Below are positions 1,438 through 62,408 of a stretch of 64,000 bases of DNA, piece by piece. The stretch covers positions 1,392,501 through 1,456,500 of the forward strand of contig NZ_CP101462.1 of NCBI RefSeq assembly GCF_024362205.1. The letters run 5' to 3'. The stretch comes from Exiguobacterium aurantiacum. Lineage in GTDB: Bacteria; Bacillota; Bacilli; Exiguobacteriales; Exiguobacteriaceae. How positions within the stretch are numbered: position 1 is the stretch's first letter; every line of letters begins with the position of its first letter. Made by a program: the position numbers and the translations under genes. Below the pieces are notes generated by a model. The model was not told the origin of the DNA, did no database searches, and worked only from the letters and a program-made list of their open reading frames with translations.

Positions 1438-3003
1438 ATGGAAAGAAAAAGCCAAGTGACGACCGTTTTCCTCGTTTCAGCCATTATCACGGTCTTGTTC
1501 ACGATTTGGGGAATCTTCCCTGAGCGCCTCCTTGGCAATGCCAGTCTCTTGAACGTGACGACAAAGCTGCAAGGGTGGCTCTCGAACGGGATGGGTTGGT
1601 TTTATTTACTCAGCGCGACTGGGATTTTACTCGTCGCCGTCTTTTTAGTCTTTTCAAGATTCGGCTCGATTCGACTCGGTAAAGATACGGACCGACCAGA
1701 ATTCAGTTATTTGACATGGTTCGCCATGTTGTTCAGTGCTGGAATGGGGATCGGCCTCATCTTCTGGGGAGCAGCAGAACCGTTGTCACATTTCCATGCA
1801 CCGCCGTTTGAGTCGCCGACGCCTGAAGGCGATGCGCGCACTGCGATGCGTTATTCATTCTTCCATTGGGGCTTCCACCCGTGGGCAATTTATGCGATGA
1901 TTGCGCTCGCCATCGCCTACTCGACGTTCCGTAAAGGTCGCCCGGCGACAATCGGGGAGACAATCGGGTCGATTGTCAATGATCGCTATGAACGTCCGGT
2001 CAAACAGACGGTCGATATTTTAGCCGTCATCGCGACCGCTTTCGGTGTCGCGACTTCGCTCGGCTTCGGGGCCCAGCAAATCGCAGGCGGTTTGCATTAC
2101 TTGATTCCAGGCGTACCGAACGCGTTCTCGACGCAATTTATCATCATCGCGGTCGTGACGGTGCTGTACATGATCAGTGCCTCGACGGGTCTCGAGAAAG
2201 GGATTCGGATCTTAAGTAATACGAACATCTTTCTCGCCGTCGTTTTGCTCGGAGCAACATTAGTGGCCGGACCGAGCGCGTTCATCCTCGACTTGTTTAC
2301 ACAGACGATTGGGACATACTTGCAACAGTTGCCATCGATGAGTTTCCGTACCGCTGCATTAGAACCGGTCGAACGGGAATGGATCAACGGTTGGACAATC
2401 TTCTATTGGGCATGGTGGATCTCATGGTCACCGTTCGTCGGGACGTTCATAGCCCGCGTCTCAAAAGGACGTACGATTCGTGAGTTCATCATCGGGATTC
2501 TGCTCGTACCGACCTCATTCGGTCTGCTTTGGTTCTCTGTCTTCGGCGGATCGGCCATCTGGGCCGACTTGTTCGGCGGCGCATCACTGATCGACCAAGT
2601 CAACGAGATCGGGACGGAAGTCGGATTGTTCGCCTTGTTCGAGACGTTCGGTGGATTCGGGACGGTTCTCAGCATCGTGGCCATCTTCCTGATCTCGACG
2701 TTCTTCATCACGTCAGCGGATTCGGCCACATATGTGCTCGGGATGCTGACGACGAACGGGAAACTGATCCCGCCGATGCGCATCAAGTTGATTTGGGGCT
2801 TCATCCAATCTTCAATCGCTGCTGTCTTGCTCTATGCGGGTGGACTTGGAGCGCTGCAAGCGGTCGCCATCCTCGTCGCGTTCCCGTTCATCTTCGTCTT
2901 GATTCTGATGATTGTCGCCTTGTTCAAGGACTTGGCCGACGAACCGGACGAGCGGGACAAATGGATTGAAGCGTATAAAGACGAAGAAGATAAACTCGGA
3001 TAA
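1438..3003 (+). CDS. BCCT-family glycine betaine transporter (OpuD/BetL type)
   Basis: This 521-residue membrane protein has about 12 hydrophobic segments. It carries the BCCT family marks: GMGIGLIFWGAAEPL around residue 105, whose GMGIG motif is that of sodium-coupled betaine carriers such as BetP, and WAWWISWSPFVGTFIAR, the tryptophan-rich substrate-box helix. It would import betaine or a related trimethylammonium compound with Na+ as osmoprotectant. The C-terminal tail is short and charged (DKWIEAYKDEEDKLG), without the long osmosensing tail of BetP. The start at 1438 is chosen for the AGGAG site 8 bases upstream; an earlier in-frame ATG lacks one. It is monocistronic, with a sigma-B-like promoter ahead and a hairpin behind. 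Substrate choice among betaine, choline and carnitine is inference. Confidence 0.9.
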   Translation: MERKSQVTTVFLVSAIITVLFTIWGIFPERLLGNASLLNVTTKLQGWLSNGMGWFYLLSATGILLVAVFLVFSRFGSIRLGKDTDRPEFSYLTWFAMLFSAGMGIGLIFWGAAEPLSHFHAPPFESPTPEGDARTAMRYSFFHWGFHPWAIYAMIALAIAYSTFRKGRPATIGETIGSIVNDRYERPVKQTVDILAVIATAFGVATSLGFGAQQIAGGLHYLIPGVPNAFSTQFIIIAVVTVLYMISASTGLEKGIRILSNTNIFLAVVLLGATLVAGPSAFILDLFTQTIGTYLQQLPSMSFRTAALEPVEREWINGWTIFYWAWWISWSPFVGTFIARVSKGRTIREFIIGILLVPTSFGLLWFSVFGGSAIWADLFGGASLIDQVNEIGTEVGLFALFETFGGFGTVLSIVAIFLISTFFITSADSATYVLGMLTTNGKLIPPMRIKLIWGFIQSSIAAVLLYAGGLGALQAVAILVAFPFIFVLILMIVALFKDLADEPDERDKWIEAYKDEEDKLG

Positions 3004-3009
3004 GTCGAA

Positions 3010-3037
3010 AGGGGTCTCCATATGGAGGCCTCTTTTT
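3010..3037 (+). terminator. Intrinsic terminator after the BCCT gene
   Basis: GGTCTCC pairs with GGAGGCC (one G-T pair) around ATAT, followed by CTCTTTTT. Confidence 0.8.
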
Positions 3038-3108
3038 AGTGGTTAATGTTTTGCAGGACCCTCTCGCTAGTGTAGGATAGTAAGTGAAGAAGATTGGGAG
3101 GGCATTCT

Positions 3109-3792
3109 ATGAAACAACAAGTGAAAAAGCGATTGAGTTGGGTGATTTTTGCCGGGATCCTCATTGTCGGCGCCCTGCTCGCCTATAACTTTTATTTGGT
3201 CACCAATTTGAATGACGACGAGGGCCGCACCAATCGGGCCGAGCCGTTCTATACGTCTGTGGTCATCGGCTATGAAGAGAAAAAATTGCCAGAAAACGGA
3301 GAGACGTTAGAAGTTCGTGAATACAAAGTGACATATGACGAAGACGGACATTTCGTGTCCGAGGTCGTGTCCGGACCGAACGTCGGATCCCGGGCCGAGT
3401 GGGACGGGACTGTCTACCGCGAGTTCAATCCGGACGGTGAGGAGACGAACAGTCAAGAGACGAGCTCAGGCGCGGTCGCCCCGCACCCGTTCTTGTCACG
3501 TGCAACGAACGAACAGATTCGCAAATGGCTAGACGATGGAACGCTCGGATCGAGTGAAGGTGATGTCGATATCATTGGCCGGACGGCACAAGCGTTCGTC
3601 AAGAAAGAATCACCGGAAGCCGTCCCAGCGGAATGGGTCGAGAAATATCCAACGATTTTCAGCGAAGACGAAAACGAAGAAGCGGTGACGTACTACGTCG
3701 ATGCGAACGAGCGCATTTTGCTCGCCGCCGAGTCGCGTAACAACGGCAAGTTGTTCCATTCGATTCGCATGACTTCTTTTGAATCACGATAA
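3109..3792 (+). CDS. Unknown membrane-anchored extracellular protein, 227 aa
   Basis: A GGGAGGG site precedes the ATG at 3109. Residues 8-30 form one hydrophobic segment after a Lys-rich start, so the rest should lie outside the membrane as an anchored domain. That domain is acidic and contains repeated Val/Tyr-rich strands (LEVREYKVTYDEDGHFVSEV). I recognise no enzyme motif and no lipobox. The gene lies 57 bases upstream of the double-AAA ATPase gene on the same strand with no clear terminator between them, so the two may be co-transcribed. A link in function is inference only. Confidence 0.7.
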   Translation: MKQQVKKRLSWVIFAGILIVGALLAYNFYLVTNLNDDEGRTNRAEPFYTSVVIGYEEKKLPENGETLEVREYKVTYDEDGHFVSEVVSGPNVGSRAEWDGTVYREFNPDGEETNSQETSSGAVAPHPFLSRATNEQIRKWLDDGTLGSSEGDVDIIGRTAQAFVKKESPEAVPAEWVEKYPTIFSEDENEEAVTYYVDANERILLAAESRNNGKLFHSIRMTSFESR

Positions 3793-33209: not shown

Positions 33210-34058
33210 GTGCATCAGCTGATTGAAGAGGCACTCCGATTCGCGGCCGTCCGTCATGACGGACAGTTTCGAAAAGGAACGAACATTCCCTACTTGACCC
33301 ATCCCGTCGCCGTCTCGATGTTGCTCGTCGAGGATCGACAACCCGTCCCGGTCGTCACGGCCGGACTGCTCCATGACTTGCTCGAAGATACGTTGACCAC
33401 ACCGGACGAACTGAGTGAGCGTTTCGGACATGAGGTGACTCGATTAGTCGAAGCTGTGTCCGAGCCAGGGAAACACCTGTCTTGGGAGGAACGTAAGCGG
33501 ATGACGATTCAGAATGTGCGGACGATGCAGTATGATGAAGTGGCACTCTTGGCGGCAGACAAGTTACATAATCTGCGCTCGATTCGAATCGACGTCGAGT
33601 CTGCCGGCAAACAAGTATGGGACCGCTTCAAACGACCGCTTCGCGACCAGTCCTGGTATTATCACGAACTGCTCCAAGCGTTGAAGCCGTTCGCGCAGAC
33701 AACGACGCTCATCGAAGCGTTCGAGACGGAATTGAATCTGCTGTTTTACGGTGTCGAAGAAGGGCGGACCGAGAAGCTCGAGAAGCTCTTCGACGTCATC
33801 AAACACGGGTTCCGCGAAGAAGATTGGCTTCAAGAGACGACGACGCTTTGTCAGACCGCTTTTGAACTGAATGAGACGATGCGTGAAGGGTATCGCCACG
33901 GATTCGAGGTCAACCAACCTGAACTTGACGCCTTGTCGGCTCAATTGAAAGAAGCAGGACTTTGGGAACACTTGTCGCTCCCGGCACTTCAAGCGATTGA
34001 TGAATTATCGTATCGAATGGCACTGCAATCGGACGATATCGTCGCGCAGCTCGAGTGA
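33210..34058 (+). CDS. HD-domain phosphohydrolase (SpoT/MESH1-like)
   Basis: The N-terminal part (residues 1-130) resembles the hydrolase domain of RelA/SpoT and MESH1: FAAVRHDGQFRKGTNIPYLTHPVAV, TAGLLHDLLEDTLTTPDEL (HD pair with ED), and LLAADKLHNLRSI. These supply the metal-binding His/Asp set. Such proteins hydrolyse (p)ppGpp or related nucleotides. Residues 140-282 are a separate helical region I do not recognise. The GTG start follows AGGAGGAAGC. Substrate assignment is by analogy only. Confidence 0.8.
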   Translation: MHQLIEEALRFAAVRHDGQFRKGTNIPYLTHPVAVSMLLVEDRQPVPVVTAGLLHDLLEDTLTTPDELSERFGHEVTRLVEAVSEPGKHLSWEERKRMTIQNVRTMQYDEVALLAADKLHNLRSIRIDVESAGKQVWDRFKRPLRDQSWYYHELLQALKPFAQTTTLIEAFETELNLLFYGVEEGRTEKLEKLFDVIKHGFREEDWLQETTTLCQTAFELNETMREGYRHGFEVNQPELDALSAQLKEAGLWEHLSLPALQAIDELSYRMALQSDDIVAQLE

Positions 34059-34063
34059 AATGA

Positions 34064-34092
34064 TTGTCAAGTGACCTTAAACGTGATATATT
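34064..34092 (+). promoter_or_regulatory. Sigma-A promoter of the Mn-riboswitch transcript
   Basis: TTGTCA, 17 bases, TATATT, placed so that transcription would start near 34099, just before the riboswitch aptamer. Confidence 0.75.
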
Positions 34093-34098
34093 CGTCGT

Positions 34099-34200
34099 GA
34101 ACATAAGAGGGGGAGTAGCGACCACGAATGTGGTCGGTGGGTCGTCATTACGGTGCAATGCACTCGGTCCATCGAGCTTCTGAACCAAGTCCGCGAGACC
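34099..34200 (+). ncRNA. yybP-ykoY (Mn2+) riboswitch
   Basis: The leader shows the conserved parts of this class in order: GGGGGAGTAGC, a helix (GACCAC/GTGGTC), GTCGTCATTACGG, and the closing CCAAGTCCGCGAGACCTTT. Family members bind Mn2+ and turn on manganese efflux genes. The 3' end overlaps the left arm of a strong terminator, so the switch probably works by antitermination. Confidence 0.85.
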
Positions 34201-34243
34201 TTTTTATGGATGCTTATTCGGCGTCCATAAAAAGGTCTTTTTT
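34196..34243 (+). terminator. Expression-platform terminator of the Mn riboswitch
   Basis: AGACCTTTTTATGGATGC pairs with GCGTCCATAAAAAGGTCT and is followed by T6. The first bases are shared with the aptamer's last helix. Confidence 0.85.
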
Positions 34244-34273
34244 GAATTTTTGAAAAAGGGGAGACACAGGAAT

Positions 34274-35263
34274 ATGGTATTCATTTACTTCATCTTGGCC
34301 GCTGCACTGACCGTGTATGCCGCCATCAAACTATCGACGTACGCCGACGTCATCAGCGAGAAGTCAACGATGAGCGGCATGCTCGTCGGGACCGTGTTGC
34401 TTGCCGGGGCGACATCATTGCCGGAAGTGACGACGAGCGTCTCGGCCGTCATGATCAACAACCCGGATATCGCTATCGGGAACATGCTCGGCTCGAACTT
34501 GTTCAACATCTTCATCTTGGCGATGTTCGACTTGTATTATCGTCAGAAACGTCTATTTAACGAAGCGAGTCGGGACCACCTCTACACGGCAAGTCTCGGT
34601 TTGATGTTGACACTCGTGACGATGCTCGCACTCGTCATCCGCATCGACTTCACGATTCTTGGGATCGGCATCGATGCATTATTGATTGCCGGGTTGTACG
34701 CGATTGGAATTTACTATATCGGAAAACGTCCGAAAGAACCGTCGACAGAACGGGAAGTCGAGCAAGAGGTTGGCGTCAGCGTCACCGACTCGATTCCGAT
34801 CAAGCGTGCGGTTATCGGCTTCATCATGGCCGCCCTCGTCATCATGGCGGCCGGAACAGCGCTCTCGGTATTAGGTGATCAAATCGCCGTCGTGACCGGA
34901 CTCGGTTCAAGCTTTGTCGGTAGCTTCTTGATCGCGGCCTCGACATCGCTCCCAGAAGCGGTCGCCGTCTTCGTCGCCTTGAAGCTTGGTAACGTCAACT
35001 TGGCATTCGGTTCAATCTTGGGGAGTAACATCTTCAATATGCTCATCATCGCGATGTCGGACGTCTTCTACCGAGGCGGCTCGATTTTGGCTGATGTGTC
35101 AACGTCACACTTGGTGACGGCGATTGGAATCACGATTTTGTCGGTCTTGGTCATGTACAGTGTTCTTCGCAAAGATGTCACGTCGAAGTTCCGCTACGTC
35201 TTGCCGTCCGTGCTCGTCGTCCTCGTCTATTTCGCGTCGTCTTACTTTATCTTCATCGGTTGA
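34274..35263 (+). CDS. CaCA-family sodium/calcium exchanger-like transporter, probable Mn2+ exporter
   Basis: The 329-residue protein has two inverted Na_Ca_ex repeats. Each holds the cation-binding signature: GATSLPEVTTSVSAVMINNP with GNMLGSNLFN, and AASTSLPEAVAVFVALKLGN with GSILGSNIFN. A charged cytosolic loop (residues 150-180) separates them. YrbG/CaX-type proteins exchange Ca2+ for Na+ or H+. The Mn2+ riboswitch in its leader argues that this one exports Mn2+. A terminator follows, so it is monocistronic. Confidence 0.88.
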   Translation: MVFIYFILAAALTVYAAIKLSTYADVISEKSTMSGMLVGTVLLAGATSLPEVTTSVSAVMINNPDIAIGNMLGSNLFNIFILAMFDLYYRQKRLFNEASRDHLYTASLGLMLTLVTMLALVIRIDFTILGIGIDALLIAGLYAIGIYYIGKRPKEPSTEREVEQEVGVSVTDSIPIKRAVIGFIMAALVIMAAGTALSVLGDQIAVVTGLGSSFVGSFLIAASTSLPEAVAVFVALKLGNVNLAFGSILGSNIFNMLIIAMSDVFYRGGSILADVSTSHLVTAIGITILSVLVMYSVLRKDVTSKFRYVLPSVLVVLVYFASSYFIFIG

Positions 35264-35268
35264 TTAAC

Positions 35269-35300
35269 CACACGGTGTCCTCGGACATCGTGTTTTTTGT
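35269..35300 (+). terminator. Intrinsic terminator after the exchanger gene
   Basis: ACACGGTGTCC pairs with GGACATCGTGT around TC, followed by T6. Confidence 0.85.
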
Positions 35301-40680: not shown

Positions 40681-40793
40681 GTCATATCGGCCAAGGCAAA
40701 CGCCTTGCTGGAAGTAGCACCTTGCCGAAGCAGGTTGCTGTGAAGTCATAGAGCCAGGTCTCTCGTTCACTCAAGATATCGATATGTAGTTGG
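40681..40793 (-). ncRNA. SAM-I (S-box) riboswitch upstream of msrA
   Basis: On the minus strand P1 (CATATCG/CGATATG) encloses the S-box core: AACGAGAGACCTGGCTCTATGA, CAGCAACC, a tetraloop helix, then AAGGTGCTACTTCCAGCA and a GGC-rich P4 (AAGGCGTTTGCCTT). These match the four-way-junction consensus. Binding of S-adenosylmethionine should favour the terminator and switch msrA off. Confidence 0.92.
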
Positions 40794-43805: not shown

Positions 43806-44687
43806 ATGGAGACAGTAAACGCTGCGTTATGGATTCGAGTCAGAAATACGCTTGGGGAAGGCCCGTGTTGGGATGCTGAACTAAAACGGTTCTATTGGGT
43901 CGACATCGAAGGACACACGCTTTGGTGGTACGACGAAAAGGAAGATGAGCTGTCTTCGTTCGATATGGGACAACAGATCGGGTTTGCGGTCCCGAAAGTG
44001 ACGGACGGCGTCGTCGTCGGCTTGAAAGACGGCATCTATGAATGGGACGAGGTGTCGAAGCGACTCGATAAACTCGTCGAACTCGACGACCCGGAAGGGG
44101 ATCTTCGCTTCAACGACGGAAAGGCCGACCCGTACGGACGAATCTTCGCCGGGACGCTCCATCTCAACGACGAGGAGAACGAGGCGACGCTCTATCGCTT
44201 GAACCGTGACGGCACGACCGAGGTCATGTTGAGTGAATTGACATTATCGAACGGTCTGACATGGTCCCCGGACCACTCGACGTTCTATCATATCGATACA
44301 CCGACCGAGACGGTCCGTAAATACCCGTTCGACTTGAAAACGGGAACGCTCGGGGAGGGGGAAGTCGTCATCGATTTCAAAGACGAGGAAGGATTCCCGG
44401 ACGGCATGACATCCGATGAGGACGGATTCTTGTGGATCGCCCACTTCGCCGGCGGAAAAGTGTCGAGATGGAATCCGGATACTGGTGAGAAAGTGCTCGA
44501 GGTGCTCGTGCCGGCCCCGAACGTCACGTCGTGCTGTTTCGTCGGCGATGACTTGAAACAACTCGCCATCACGACGGCGCGTGAAGGGATGGATGACGCG
44601 GCGCTCAAAGCTCATCCGGACGCAGGGTCGGTCTTTAAAATCGATACGGACGTGAAAGGGATGCCGCTCTATCGGTTTGGACGATAA
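43806..44687 (+). CDS. SMP-30/regucalcin-like lactonase
   Basis: The 293-residue six-bladed propeller enzyme has LGEGPCWDAELKRFYWVDIEGH (metal-binding Glu), RFNDGKADPYGRIFAGTL, LSNGLTWSPDHSTFYHIDT (Asn and Asp ligands) and PDGMTSDEDGFLWIAHF. The family hydrolyses aldono-lactones such as gluconolactone with a divalent metal. The ATG follows GAGTGGAGGC. It ends 12 bases before the small gene at 44700, so the two are one transcript. Confidence 0.92.
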   Translation: METVNAALWIRVRNTLGEGPCWDAELKRFYWVDIEGHTLWWYDEKEDELSSFDMGQQIGFAVPKVTDGVVVGLKDGIYEWDEVSKRLDKLVELDDPEGDLRFNDGKADPYGRIFAGTLHLNDEENEATLYRLNRDGTTEVMLSELTLSNGLTWSPDHSTFYHIDTPTETVRKYPFDLKTGTLGEGEVVIDFKDEEGFPDGMTSDEDGFLWIAHFAGGKVSRWNPDTGEKVLEVLVPAPNVTSCCFVGDDLKQLAITTAREGMDDAALKAHPDAGSVFKIDTDVKGMPLYRFGR

Positions 44688-47590: not shown

Positions 47591-47619
47591 TTTCGTTGCA
47601 TAGACAACCGCATACATTG

Positions 47620-47712
47620 GACTACACTAGGGGTGCTTCGGCTGAGATGTGAGCATGGCTCCAATCCCTTATGACTCGATCCGGGTAATACCGGCGTGAG
47701 GAAGTGTGGCAC
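47620..47712 (+). ncRNA. TPP riboswitch (THI box)
   Basis: The leader has the conserved blocks ACTAGGGGTGC, GCTGAGATG, and GATCCGGGTAATACCGGCGT followed by GAGGAAGTG. They define the thiamine-pyrophosphate aptamer. Bound TPP should favour the terminator at 47745 and shut off the ykoFEDC genes. Confidence 0.95.
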
Positions 47713-47744
47713 TTTTTCTAATGATTTTTTAAATTGGACGAGTG

Positions 47745-62016: not shown

Positions 62017-62408
62017 AGTGACTATGAGGTCTGGGCAATCGCGGGACGCAAGTCTTGAGGAAAGTCCATGCTCGCACAGCCTGTGATGGCTGTAGTGATC
62101 GTGCTACACGAAAAGATAAGTGTAGGCAACGCAAGTTGACGGCAGAAGAAGCACCTAAGTCCTCGGATATGGTGCAAGCTTCTTGAAAGTGCCACAGTGA
62201 CGGAGTCTGATCGGAAACGTTCAGAGTGGAACGAGGTAAACCCCACGAGCGAGAAACCCAAACTATGGTAGGGGAACTTCCTGACTGGAACCGAACGGGA
62301 CGGAAGGCGCCACTCGGCGCAGATAGATGATTGTCACTCCATCGTGCCAGGGAGACCGTTATGAGCACCGGAGTACAGAACATGGCTTACAGGGCAGCAT
62401 AGTCTCTC
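62017..62408 (+). ncRNA. rnpB: RNase P RNA, Bacillus type (class B)
   Basis: The P1 arms GACTATG (62020) and CATAGTC (62398) enclose about 390 bases. They hold the universal blocks GAGGAAAGTCC ATGCTCGCAC, GGTAAACCCCACGAGCGAGAA with ACCCAAA, and the 3' ACAGAACATGGCTTACAGG. The P4 strands and the B-type peripheral helices fit Bacillus rather than E. coli. This is the catalytic RNA that trims tRNA 5' ends. It has its own promoter and a terminator behind. Confidence 0.96.

Follow-up and report, generated by a model that had tools for sequence, protein, structure and literature searches.

A leader RNA of the yybP-ykoY class upstream of a CaCA-superfamily gene in Exiguobacterium aurantiacum and its probable link to manganese export

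Layout of the locus

The window analyzed here, a 64-kb stretch of Exiguobacterium aurantiacum DNA, contains a compact transcription unit that runs from position 34064 (start of the -35 element) to 35263 (end of the open reading frame). It consists of a promoter, a structured leader RNA in which an aptamer and an intrinsic terminator overlap, and a gene encoding an exchanger of the CaCA superfamily (Table 1). The earlier note on this DNA had described a promoter, an aptamer, a terminator overlapping the last helix of the aptamer and an exchanger gene; all of these could be located, and both outer coordinates are correct. The host genome has a size of 3.15 Mb, and the closest orthologue within the genus is 98% identical over the exchanger.

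Table 1. Features of the leader RNA and the exchanger gene, with positions counted from the first letter of the window.
Feature	Position	Strand	Basis
Upstream gene, HD-domain protein (PF13328)	33210-34058
Sigma-70-type promoter, TTGTCA-17-TATATT, TG before the -10 element	34064-34092	+	10/12 consensus positions; 19/19 genus genomes
Aptamer assigned to the yybP-ykoY (Mn2+) riboswitch class	34102-34207	+	R1 match, fold, covariation
P1.1 switch helix, 5' strand (partner 34199-34207)	34103-34111	+	Predicted folds
L1 5' strand, GGAGUA	34112-34117	+	Invariant in 50/50 aligned aptamers
L3 loop, UCAUUAC; A34147 corresponds to A41 of Lactococcus lactis (L. lactis) by its place in L3	34145-34151	+	U, C, A and final C unchanged in 50/50
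P4, short hairpin GCUU/AAGU	34176-34190	+	Fold
P1.1 3' strand, CCUUUUUAU, contained entirely in the 5' arm of the terminator (switch)	34199-34207	+	19/19 genus leaders
Intrinsic terminator stem-loop, 20 pairs, followed by a T-run	34195-34239	+
Likely ribosome binding site, GGGGAG	34258-34263	+	Read from the sequence
CaCA-superfamily exchanger, 329 aa, ATG at 34274	34274-35263	+	PF01699; NCX/CAX fold
Terminator-like hairpin 3' of the exchanger gene	35270-35293	+

Promoter-like sites are not enriched in the region as a whole (2 found, 1.7 expected from shuffled sequences), but this promoter is conserved, together with its 17-base spacer, in 19/19 genus genomes. The aptamer is composed of the helices P1.1, P1.2, P2, P3.1, P3.2, and P4. 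In each of the 19 genus sequences the ATG is preceded by a purine-rich GGGGAG or GGAGGA. The terminator-like hairpin 3' of the exchanger gene suggests a monocistronic unit.

The window also contains other RNA elements. A SAM riboswitch aptamer (40682-40782, minus strand, 63.7 bits) immediately precedes the coding region of a peptide methionine sulfoxide reductase (PF01625; 40094-40660, minus strand), apparently a methionine-repair gene under the control of a SAM switch. A TPP riboswitch aptamer (47619-47719, plus strand) and a class B RNase P RNA (62027-62394, plus strand) both score over their Rfam cut-offs.

The leader RNA and its class

The leader is far more stable than expected from its composition (folding z = -4.9; 0/200 shuffled sequences equally stable), a value that includes the terminator, and 18/19 genus leaders fold unaided into an aptamer with a four-way junction. 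Step-wise folding predicts that window transcripts ending at 34207, 34213, 34219, and 34225 adopt the aptamer fold with P1.1 closed, and that in the transcript to 34231 P1.1 is opened and the terminator has the shared strand; once the terminator is formed, the predicted fold reaches -58.1 kcal/mol. Comparable predictions are obtained throughout the genus. In aptamer-length transcripts of 19/19 leaders at least 8/9 P1.1 pairs are predicted to form, and in the full leaders, again 19/19, at least 8/9 bases of the P1.1 3' strand are predicted to reside in the terminator.

The earlier note identified this leader as a yybP-ykoY (Mn2+) riboswitch and proposed the score of the Rfam model as a check. 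That score did not materialize: RF00080 gives no match at the window leader up to E 10, and in the host genome there is none at E ≤ 0.001 and none at the leader position up to E 10. Rfam alone, taken at face value, speaks against a switch at this locus, a reading that was set aside. The same model matches the orthologous leader in 9/19 genus genomes (24.6-37.4 bits, E 1.5e-8 to 9.3e-5), in all nine below its cut-off of 45 bits, and three of the genus alignments span L1, P2, P3, and L3. The mntP leader of E. coli, which is annotated upstream of a Mn2+ exporter, also scores below the cut-off (41.6 bits). Because the nine orthologues and the E. coli leader fall short in the same way, the miss in the window appears to be a property of the RF00080 model. 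In a survey of the class in 299 genomes, RF00080 matches at E ≤ 0.001 in 144 and exceeds the cut-off in 24, and among 12 CaCA-linked loci that were found outside the genus with the model R1 described below, it matches 3 at E ≤ 0.01, all below the cut-off. The RF00080 cut-off does not divide members from non-members here, and the current model with this cut-off misses many Mn2+ riboswitches in Bacilli. Weak matches of the leader to other Rfam families (mir-3747, RefA9, SSRC10, and others) are all below the respective cut-offs and were rejected. SSRC10 aligns along the leader (15.2 bits, cut-off 56) and possibly represents a related leader; a search of the genus with SSRC10 gave none at the leader position among the matches listed (114 candidates scored per genome).

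R1 is a covariance model constructed from the 19 aligned genus leaders only, with the four-way-junction structure. It scores the window aptamer with 110.4 bits, the window sequence being a member of its training set. At E ≤ 2.1e-5, R1 recovers 29/30 of the best RF00080 loci of the class (L079 is missed). The genes adjoining these 30 loci separate by BLAST into a group of 28 and a group of 2, and among four adjoining genes analyzed with Pfam, three from the larger group encode TerC proteins and one from the smaller group a P-type ATPase. Thus, a model trained solely on CaCA leaders recovers the switches of classical-regulon genes. At E ≤ 0.01 R1 fails to detect the mntP leader of E. coli, which RF00080 detects, and is therefore too narrow for distant copies. 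Because the hairpins are symmetrical, R1 also matches the opposite strand in 4/6 genus leaders searched (21.2-32.1 bits); four opposite-strand loci were left out of the covariation count, for which a new alignment was made. A further R1 match in the window (44246-44334, 18.2 bits, E 0.018), where Rfam finds nothing, was taken as chance. In view of the orthologue matches, the class survey, the recovery by R1 and the mntP score, the RF00080 miss is no refutation of the class assignment.

Covariation within the genus alone is uninformative, as there is too little variation (162/500 shuffles as high), and a wider set of 50 aptamers was used for this reason. It contains 31 CaCA-linked aptamers (2/19 genus leaders and 29/32 matches from outside the genus) and 19 TerC/ATPase-linked aptamers (19/30 class RF00080 loci). 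Standard pairs occupy 94.8% of the pair cells, and changes on both sides are found in 28/36 pairs. They amount to 356, whereas shuffles give 95.4 and slid partners no more than 72, in an alignment that was fitted to the structure and is biased towards it. These both-side changes also bear on the reading of the leader as a simple attenuator or terminator hairpin that binds no ligand and resembles yybP-ykoY by chance. Such a hairpin would be in line with the missing RF00080 match of the window copy; however, it is contradicted by the homology detected in both directions, by the both-side pair changes and by an invariant pocket, and we consider it hardly credible.

The pocket is formed by L1 and L3. 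GGGAGUA of L1 is unchanged in 50/50 aptamers, and the same holds for U, C, A, and the final C of L3, the window copy included. At these invariant positions the CaCA-linked switches do not differ from the TerC/ATPase-linked switches. In the L. lactis switch, N7 of A41 is described as binding Mn2+ (PMC9190785; PMC6754395). At the sixth position of L3 the window has A and L. lactis has U, and A prevails in both groups of switches (25/31 CaCA-linked and 15/19 TerC/ATPase-linked). This difference from L. lactis, together with the position of the window copy beyond RF00080 and the statement in a review that common yybP variants with altered specificity probably exist (PMC7266159), could point to a yybP-like variant that senses another ion. 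Yet CaCA-linked and TerC/ATPase-linked switches have identical bases at the invariant positions of L1 and L3, and A is the commonest sixth base in both, which makes a variant of this kind very unlikely. The class named in the earlier note is upheld by the structure and covariation of the leader, by its pocket bases, and by the detection of each set of switches with the model of the other. The leader RNA is almost certainly a yybP-ykoY (Mn2+) riboswitch, with Mn2+ as its presumed ligand in E. aurantiacum.

The exchanger and its relatives

The encoded protein is matched by PF01699 in two stretches (115.9 bits, cut-off 24.9) and contains two alpha repeats, GATSLPE/GSNLFN and STSLPE/GSNIFN. In a structure comparison it reaches Z 19.6-31.7 to 26 NCX, NCLX, CAX, and VCX1 entries, including human NCX1, NCLX, VCX1, CAX, YfkE, and NCX_Mj, and the next row scores 8.4. 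The model used in this comparison was predicted from 45 sequences (pLDDT 86); a first model based on 17 close sequences (pLDDT 40) was discarded. The protein fails the NCBI models TIGR00367, "calcium/sodium antiporter" (95.9 bits, cut-off 179.65), and PRK10734 (72, cut-off 432), which represent the type to which E. coli YrbG presumably belongs. The expectation that homology would make this protein a sodium/calcium exchanger is borne out as far as the CaCA superfamily is concerned, by Pfam and by fold, and fails at the NCBI cut-offs for a calcium/sodium antiporter.

The Na+/Ca2+ exchanger NCX_Mj (MJ0091) shares the fold and the two alpha repeats, and its residues T50, S51, E54, S77, N81, T209, S210, E213, and S236, as counted along the pairwise alignment, are identical in the window protein. 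E54 and E213 correspond to E51 and E228, the glutamates of the ion pocket. The two proteins differ at D240, which is N255 in the window protein and is reported as N in eukaryotic NCX as well (PMC8366772), and at the helix-breaking glycines G49 and G208 of GTSLPE, which are replaced by A46 and S223; the Ca2+-binding and helix-breaking roles are those described for NCX_Mj (PMC8366772). YrbG of E. coli belongs to the same superfamily and also has N in place of D240, but differs from the window protein in that it retains both glycines.

Every riboswitch-linked protein (38/38) has A at the first glycine position, whereas the second position carries T in 25 proteins, S in 9, and A in 4. Unlinked relatives mostly share these changes, with A at the first position in 27/29 and G at the second in 0/29, and the changes are therefore a mark of the subfamily and no proof of a choice for Mn2+. 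In both TSLPE motifs the residues T, S, and E, which bind Ca2+ in NCX_Mj, are kept in 38/38 riboswitch-linked proteins, so that transport of Ca2+ is possible. The position of E228 is occupied by D in 8/29 unlinked relatives. Overall, the ion-site residues are mostly common to riboswitch-linked and unlinked relatives and do not separate Mn2+ from Ca2+.

The pairing of switch and exchanger is constant within the genus: each of the 19 genomes contains a single CaCA gene and a single R1 match. In the host genome the window exchanger is the sole PF01699 gene found, and the window leader the sole R1 match at E ≤ 0.001. In the sister genus (G019-G037) 19/19 genomes contain neither a PF01699 gene nor an R1 match. 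Outside the genus, R1 is found upstream of the CaCA gene at 32/61 loci, or 31/60 when L090 and L116, which are the same place, are counted once; the 32 loci encode 31 distinct proteins. The 61 loci comprise 16/23 places from the class search and 45 from a scan of named genomes, which favours close relatives because it relied on two peptide patterns characteristic of the genus. Its matches share 41-71% identity with the window protein or its alignment. The named R1-linked genera are Jeotgalibacillus, Halalkalibacter, Alkalihalobacillus, Alkalihalophilus, and Alkalihalobacterium, and further Anaerobacillus, Evansella, Salipaludibacillus, and Bacillus. As their names indicate, many genera of this Bacillota CaCA subfamily are alkaliphilic or salt-loving. 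The presence of the riboswitch is clustered on the protein tree (10 changes, compared with 22.9 in shuffles), a tree with long branches and an uncertain root.

At 29/61 loci outside the genus neither R1 nor, at E ≤ 0.01, RF00080 finds a match, with the reservation that for tandem second copies the switch may sit beyond the sequence searched. These loci include a clade that has D for the E of the second repeat (Sediminibacillus, Virgibacillus, Aquibacillus, and one more genome), a Planococcus clade, Shouchella, and second copies in Jeotgalibacillus. Three loci taken from a plasmid search for far relatives (105 records) have no RF00080 match at E ≤ 0.01.

Individual loci vary in arrangement. In J. 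soli (L090/L116) two tandem CaCA genes (1501-2502 and 2652-3638) follow a single riboswitch, and the second copy is strongly diverged. The Jeotgalibacillus loci L117, L124, L130, and L162 have no switch in the sequence searched. In Halalkalibacter urbisdiaboli a CaCA gene is preceded by a leader (L149, 1240-1500) in which R1 finds no match and which has, as judged by eye, a terminator-like hairpin like that of the linked leaders. Perhaps this leader represents the switch minus its aptamer.

The exported ion and comparison with known systems

The locus is best explained, and in our view probably correctly, as a manganese exporter gene controlled by a transcriptional ON switch. Transcription would start from the promoter at 34064-34092, and RNA polymerase would produce the aptamer first. 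At high cytosolic Mn2+, the ion would bind where L1 and L3 meet and stabilize P1.1. The stabilized helix would retain 34199-34207, the strand that the terminator needs, so that transcription could proceed into the exchanger gene. At low Mn2+, the stronger terminator would capture 34199-34207 and transcription would stop. The product, with the two glutamates E51 and E228 in its ion pocket, would act as a CaCA antiporter that expels Mn2+, with Na+ or H+ as the most probable driving ion.

Mn2+ is likely to be the principal ion that this protein exports, as the pairing with a Mn2+ riboswitch recurs in related bacteria and has a precedent in BP3410 of Bordetella pertussis, a CaCA protein behind a yybP-ykoY riboswitch that, according to the published description, exports Mn2+ (PMC8546581). 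In that account, induction of BP3410 required manganese bound to the riboswitch, strains without a working BP3410 contained about five times more manganese when grown with manganese, and calcium had no effect on expression in the experiments described (PMC8546581). A switch that senses Mn2+ could nevertheless control an exchanger that moves mainly Ca2+, or Ca2+ and Mn2+ alike, with Mn2+ serving only as the signal in a balance of divalent cations. This would suit the retained T, S, and E residues in the 38 riboswitch-linked proteins that align with the Ca2+-binding residues of NCX_Mj, and as the only PF01699 gene found in the genome, the exchanger gene would then encode its sole CaCA-type Ca2+ exporter. 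The mgtA switch of pneumococcus, a member of the same class, is stated in a review to bind Ca2+ as well and to control Ca2+ efflux (PMC9495176). Against this stand the absence of PF01699 from 19/19 genomes of the sister genus, the identity of the switch pocket with that of TerC/ATPase-linked switches, and BP3410 as the tested precedent, and we regard a Ca2+ or dual exchanger as unlikely.

Other genes may take part in the handling of Mn2+ in this family. A gene for MntP is absent from 38/38 family genomes, and the host genome encodes two TerC and three CDF proteins as possible Mn2+ handlers. In the sister genus the number of TerC genes is 3-4 per genome, compared with 1-2, and in many genomes two of them lie side by side. 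The extra TerC genes of the sister genus are perhaps an alternative way of handling Mn2+.

Manganese export as the function of the window protein has wider implications. Since the pairing recurs in many Bacillota, genes named sodium/calcium exchanger may be Mn2+ exporters, and annotation based on homology would mislabel a whole CaCA subfamily. The regulatory RNA would in such cases be a better guide to the substrate of a transporter than the homology of the protein. It is conceivable, though we hold it with some doubt, that the CaCA subfamily of Bacillota consists of dedicated Mn2+ exporters that travel as one cassette with a riboswitch subtype of their own, and that the changes of both GTSLPE glycines (A; S/T/A) are part of a shift from Ca2+ to Mn2+. 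Natural sequence pairs are available for studying how a CaCA pocket selects Mn2+ over Ca2+.

Compared with the RF00080 class, the window leader shares the L1 sequence GGGGAGUAGC, UCAnnnC in L3, GC(A/G)AGACC, and the four-way junction. It differs in the P4 of the genus, which is a very short hairpin, and in that the current Rfam model does not detect the window copy. A further difference lies in P1.1, with AAAAAGG/CCUUUUU in most CaCA-linked copies and CAAAGG/CCUUUG in most TerC-linked copies. With the L. lactis switch, in which Mn2+ is described to stabilize P1.1 and thereby to prevent the terminator, the window leader has in common that P1.1 is shared with the terminator (PMC11087558). Among the matches listed in a search of the open-licence literature, there is no report of a Bacillota CaCA protein behind a yybP-ykoY riboswitch, and only the Bordetella study was retrieved (PMC8546581). 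The locus resembles that of BP3410, by its published description, in having a CaCA-type protein directly behind a yybP-ykoY riboswitch, and differs in belonging to another phylum. A CaCA protein that is paired with this riboswitch and exports Mn2+ is thus already known in kind from BP3410, and the present analysis adds a Gram-positive branch with widespread occurrence of the pairing.
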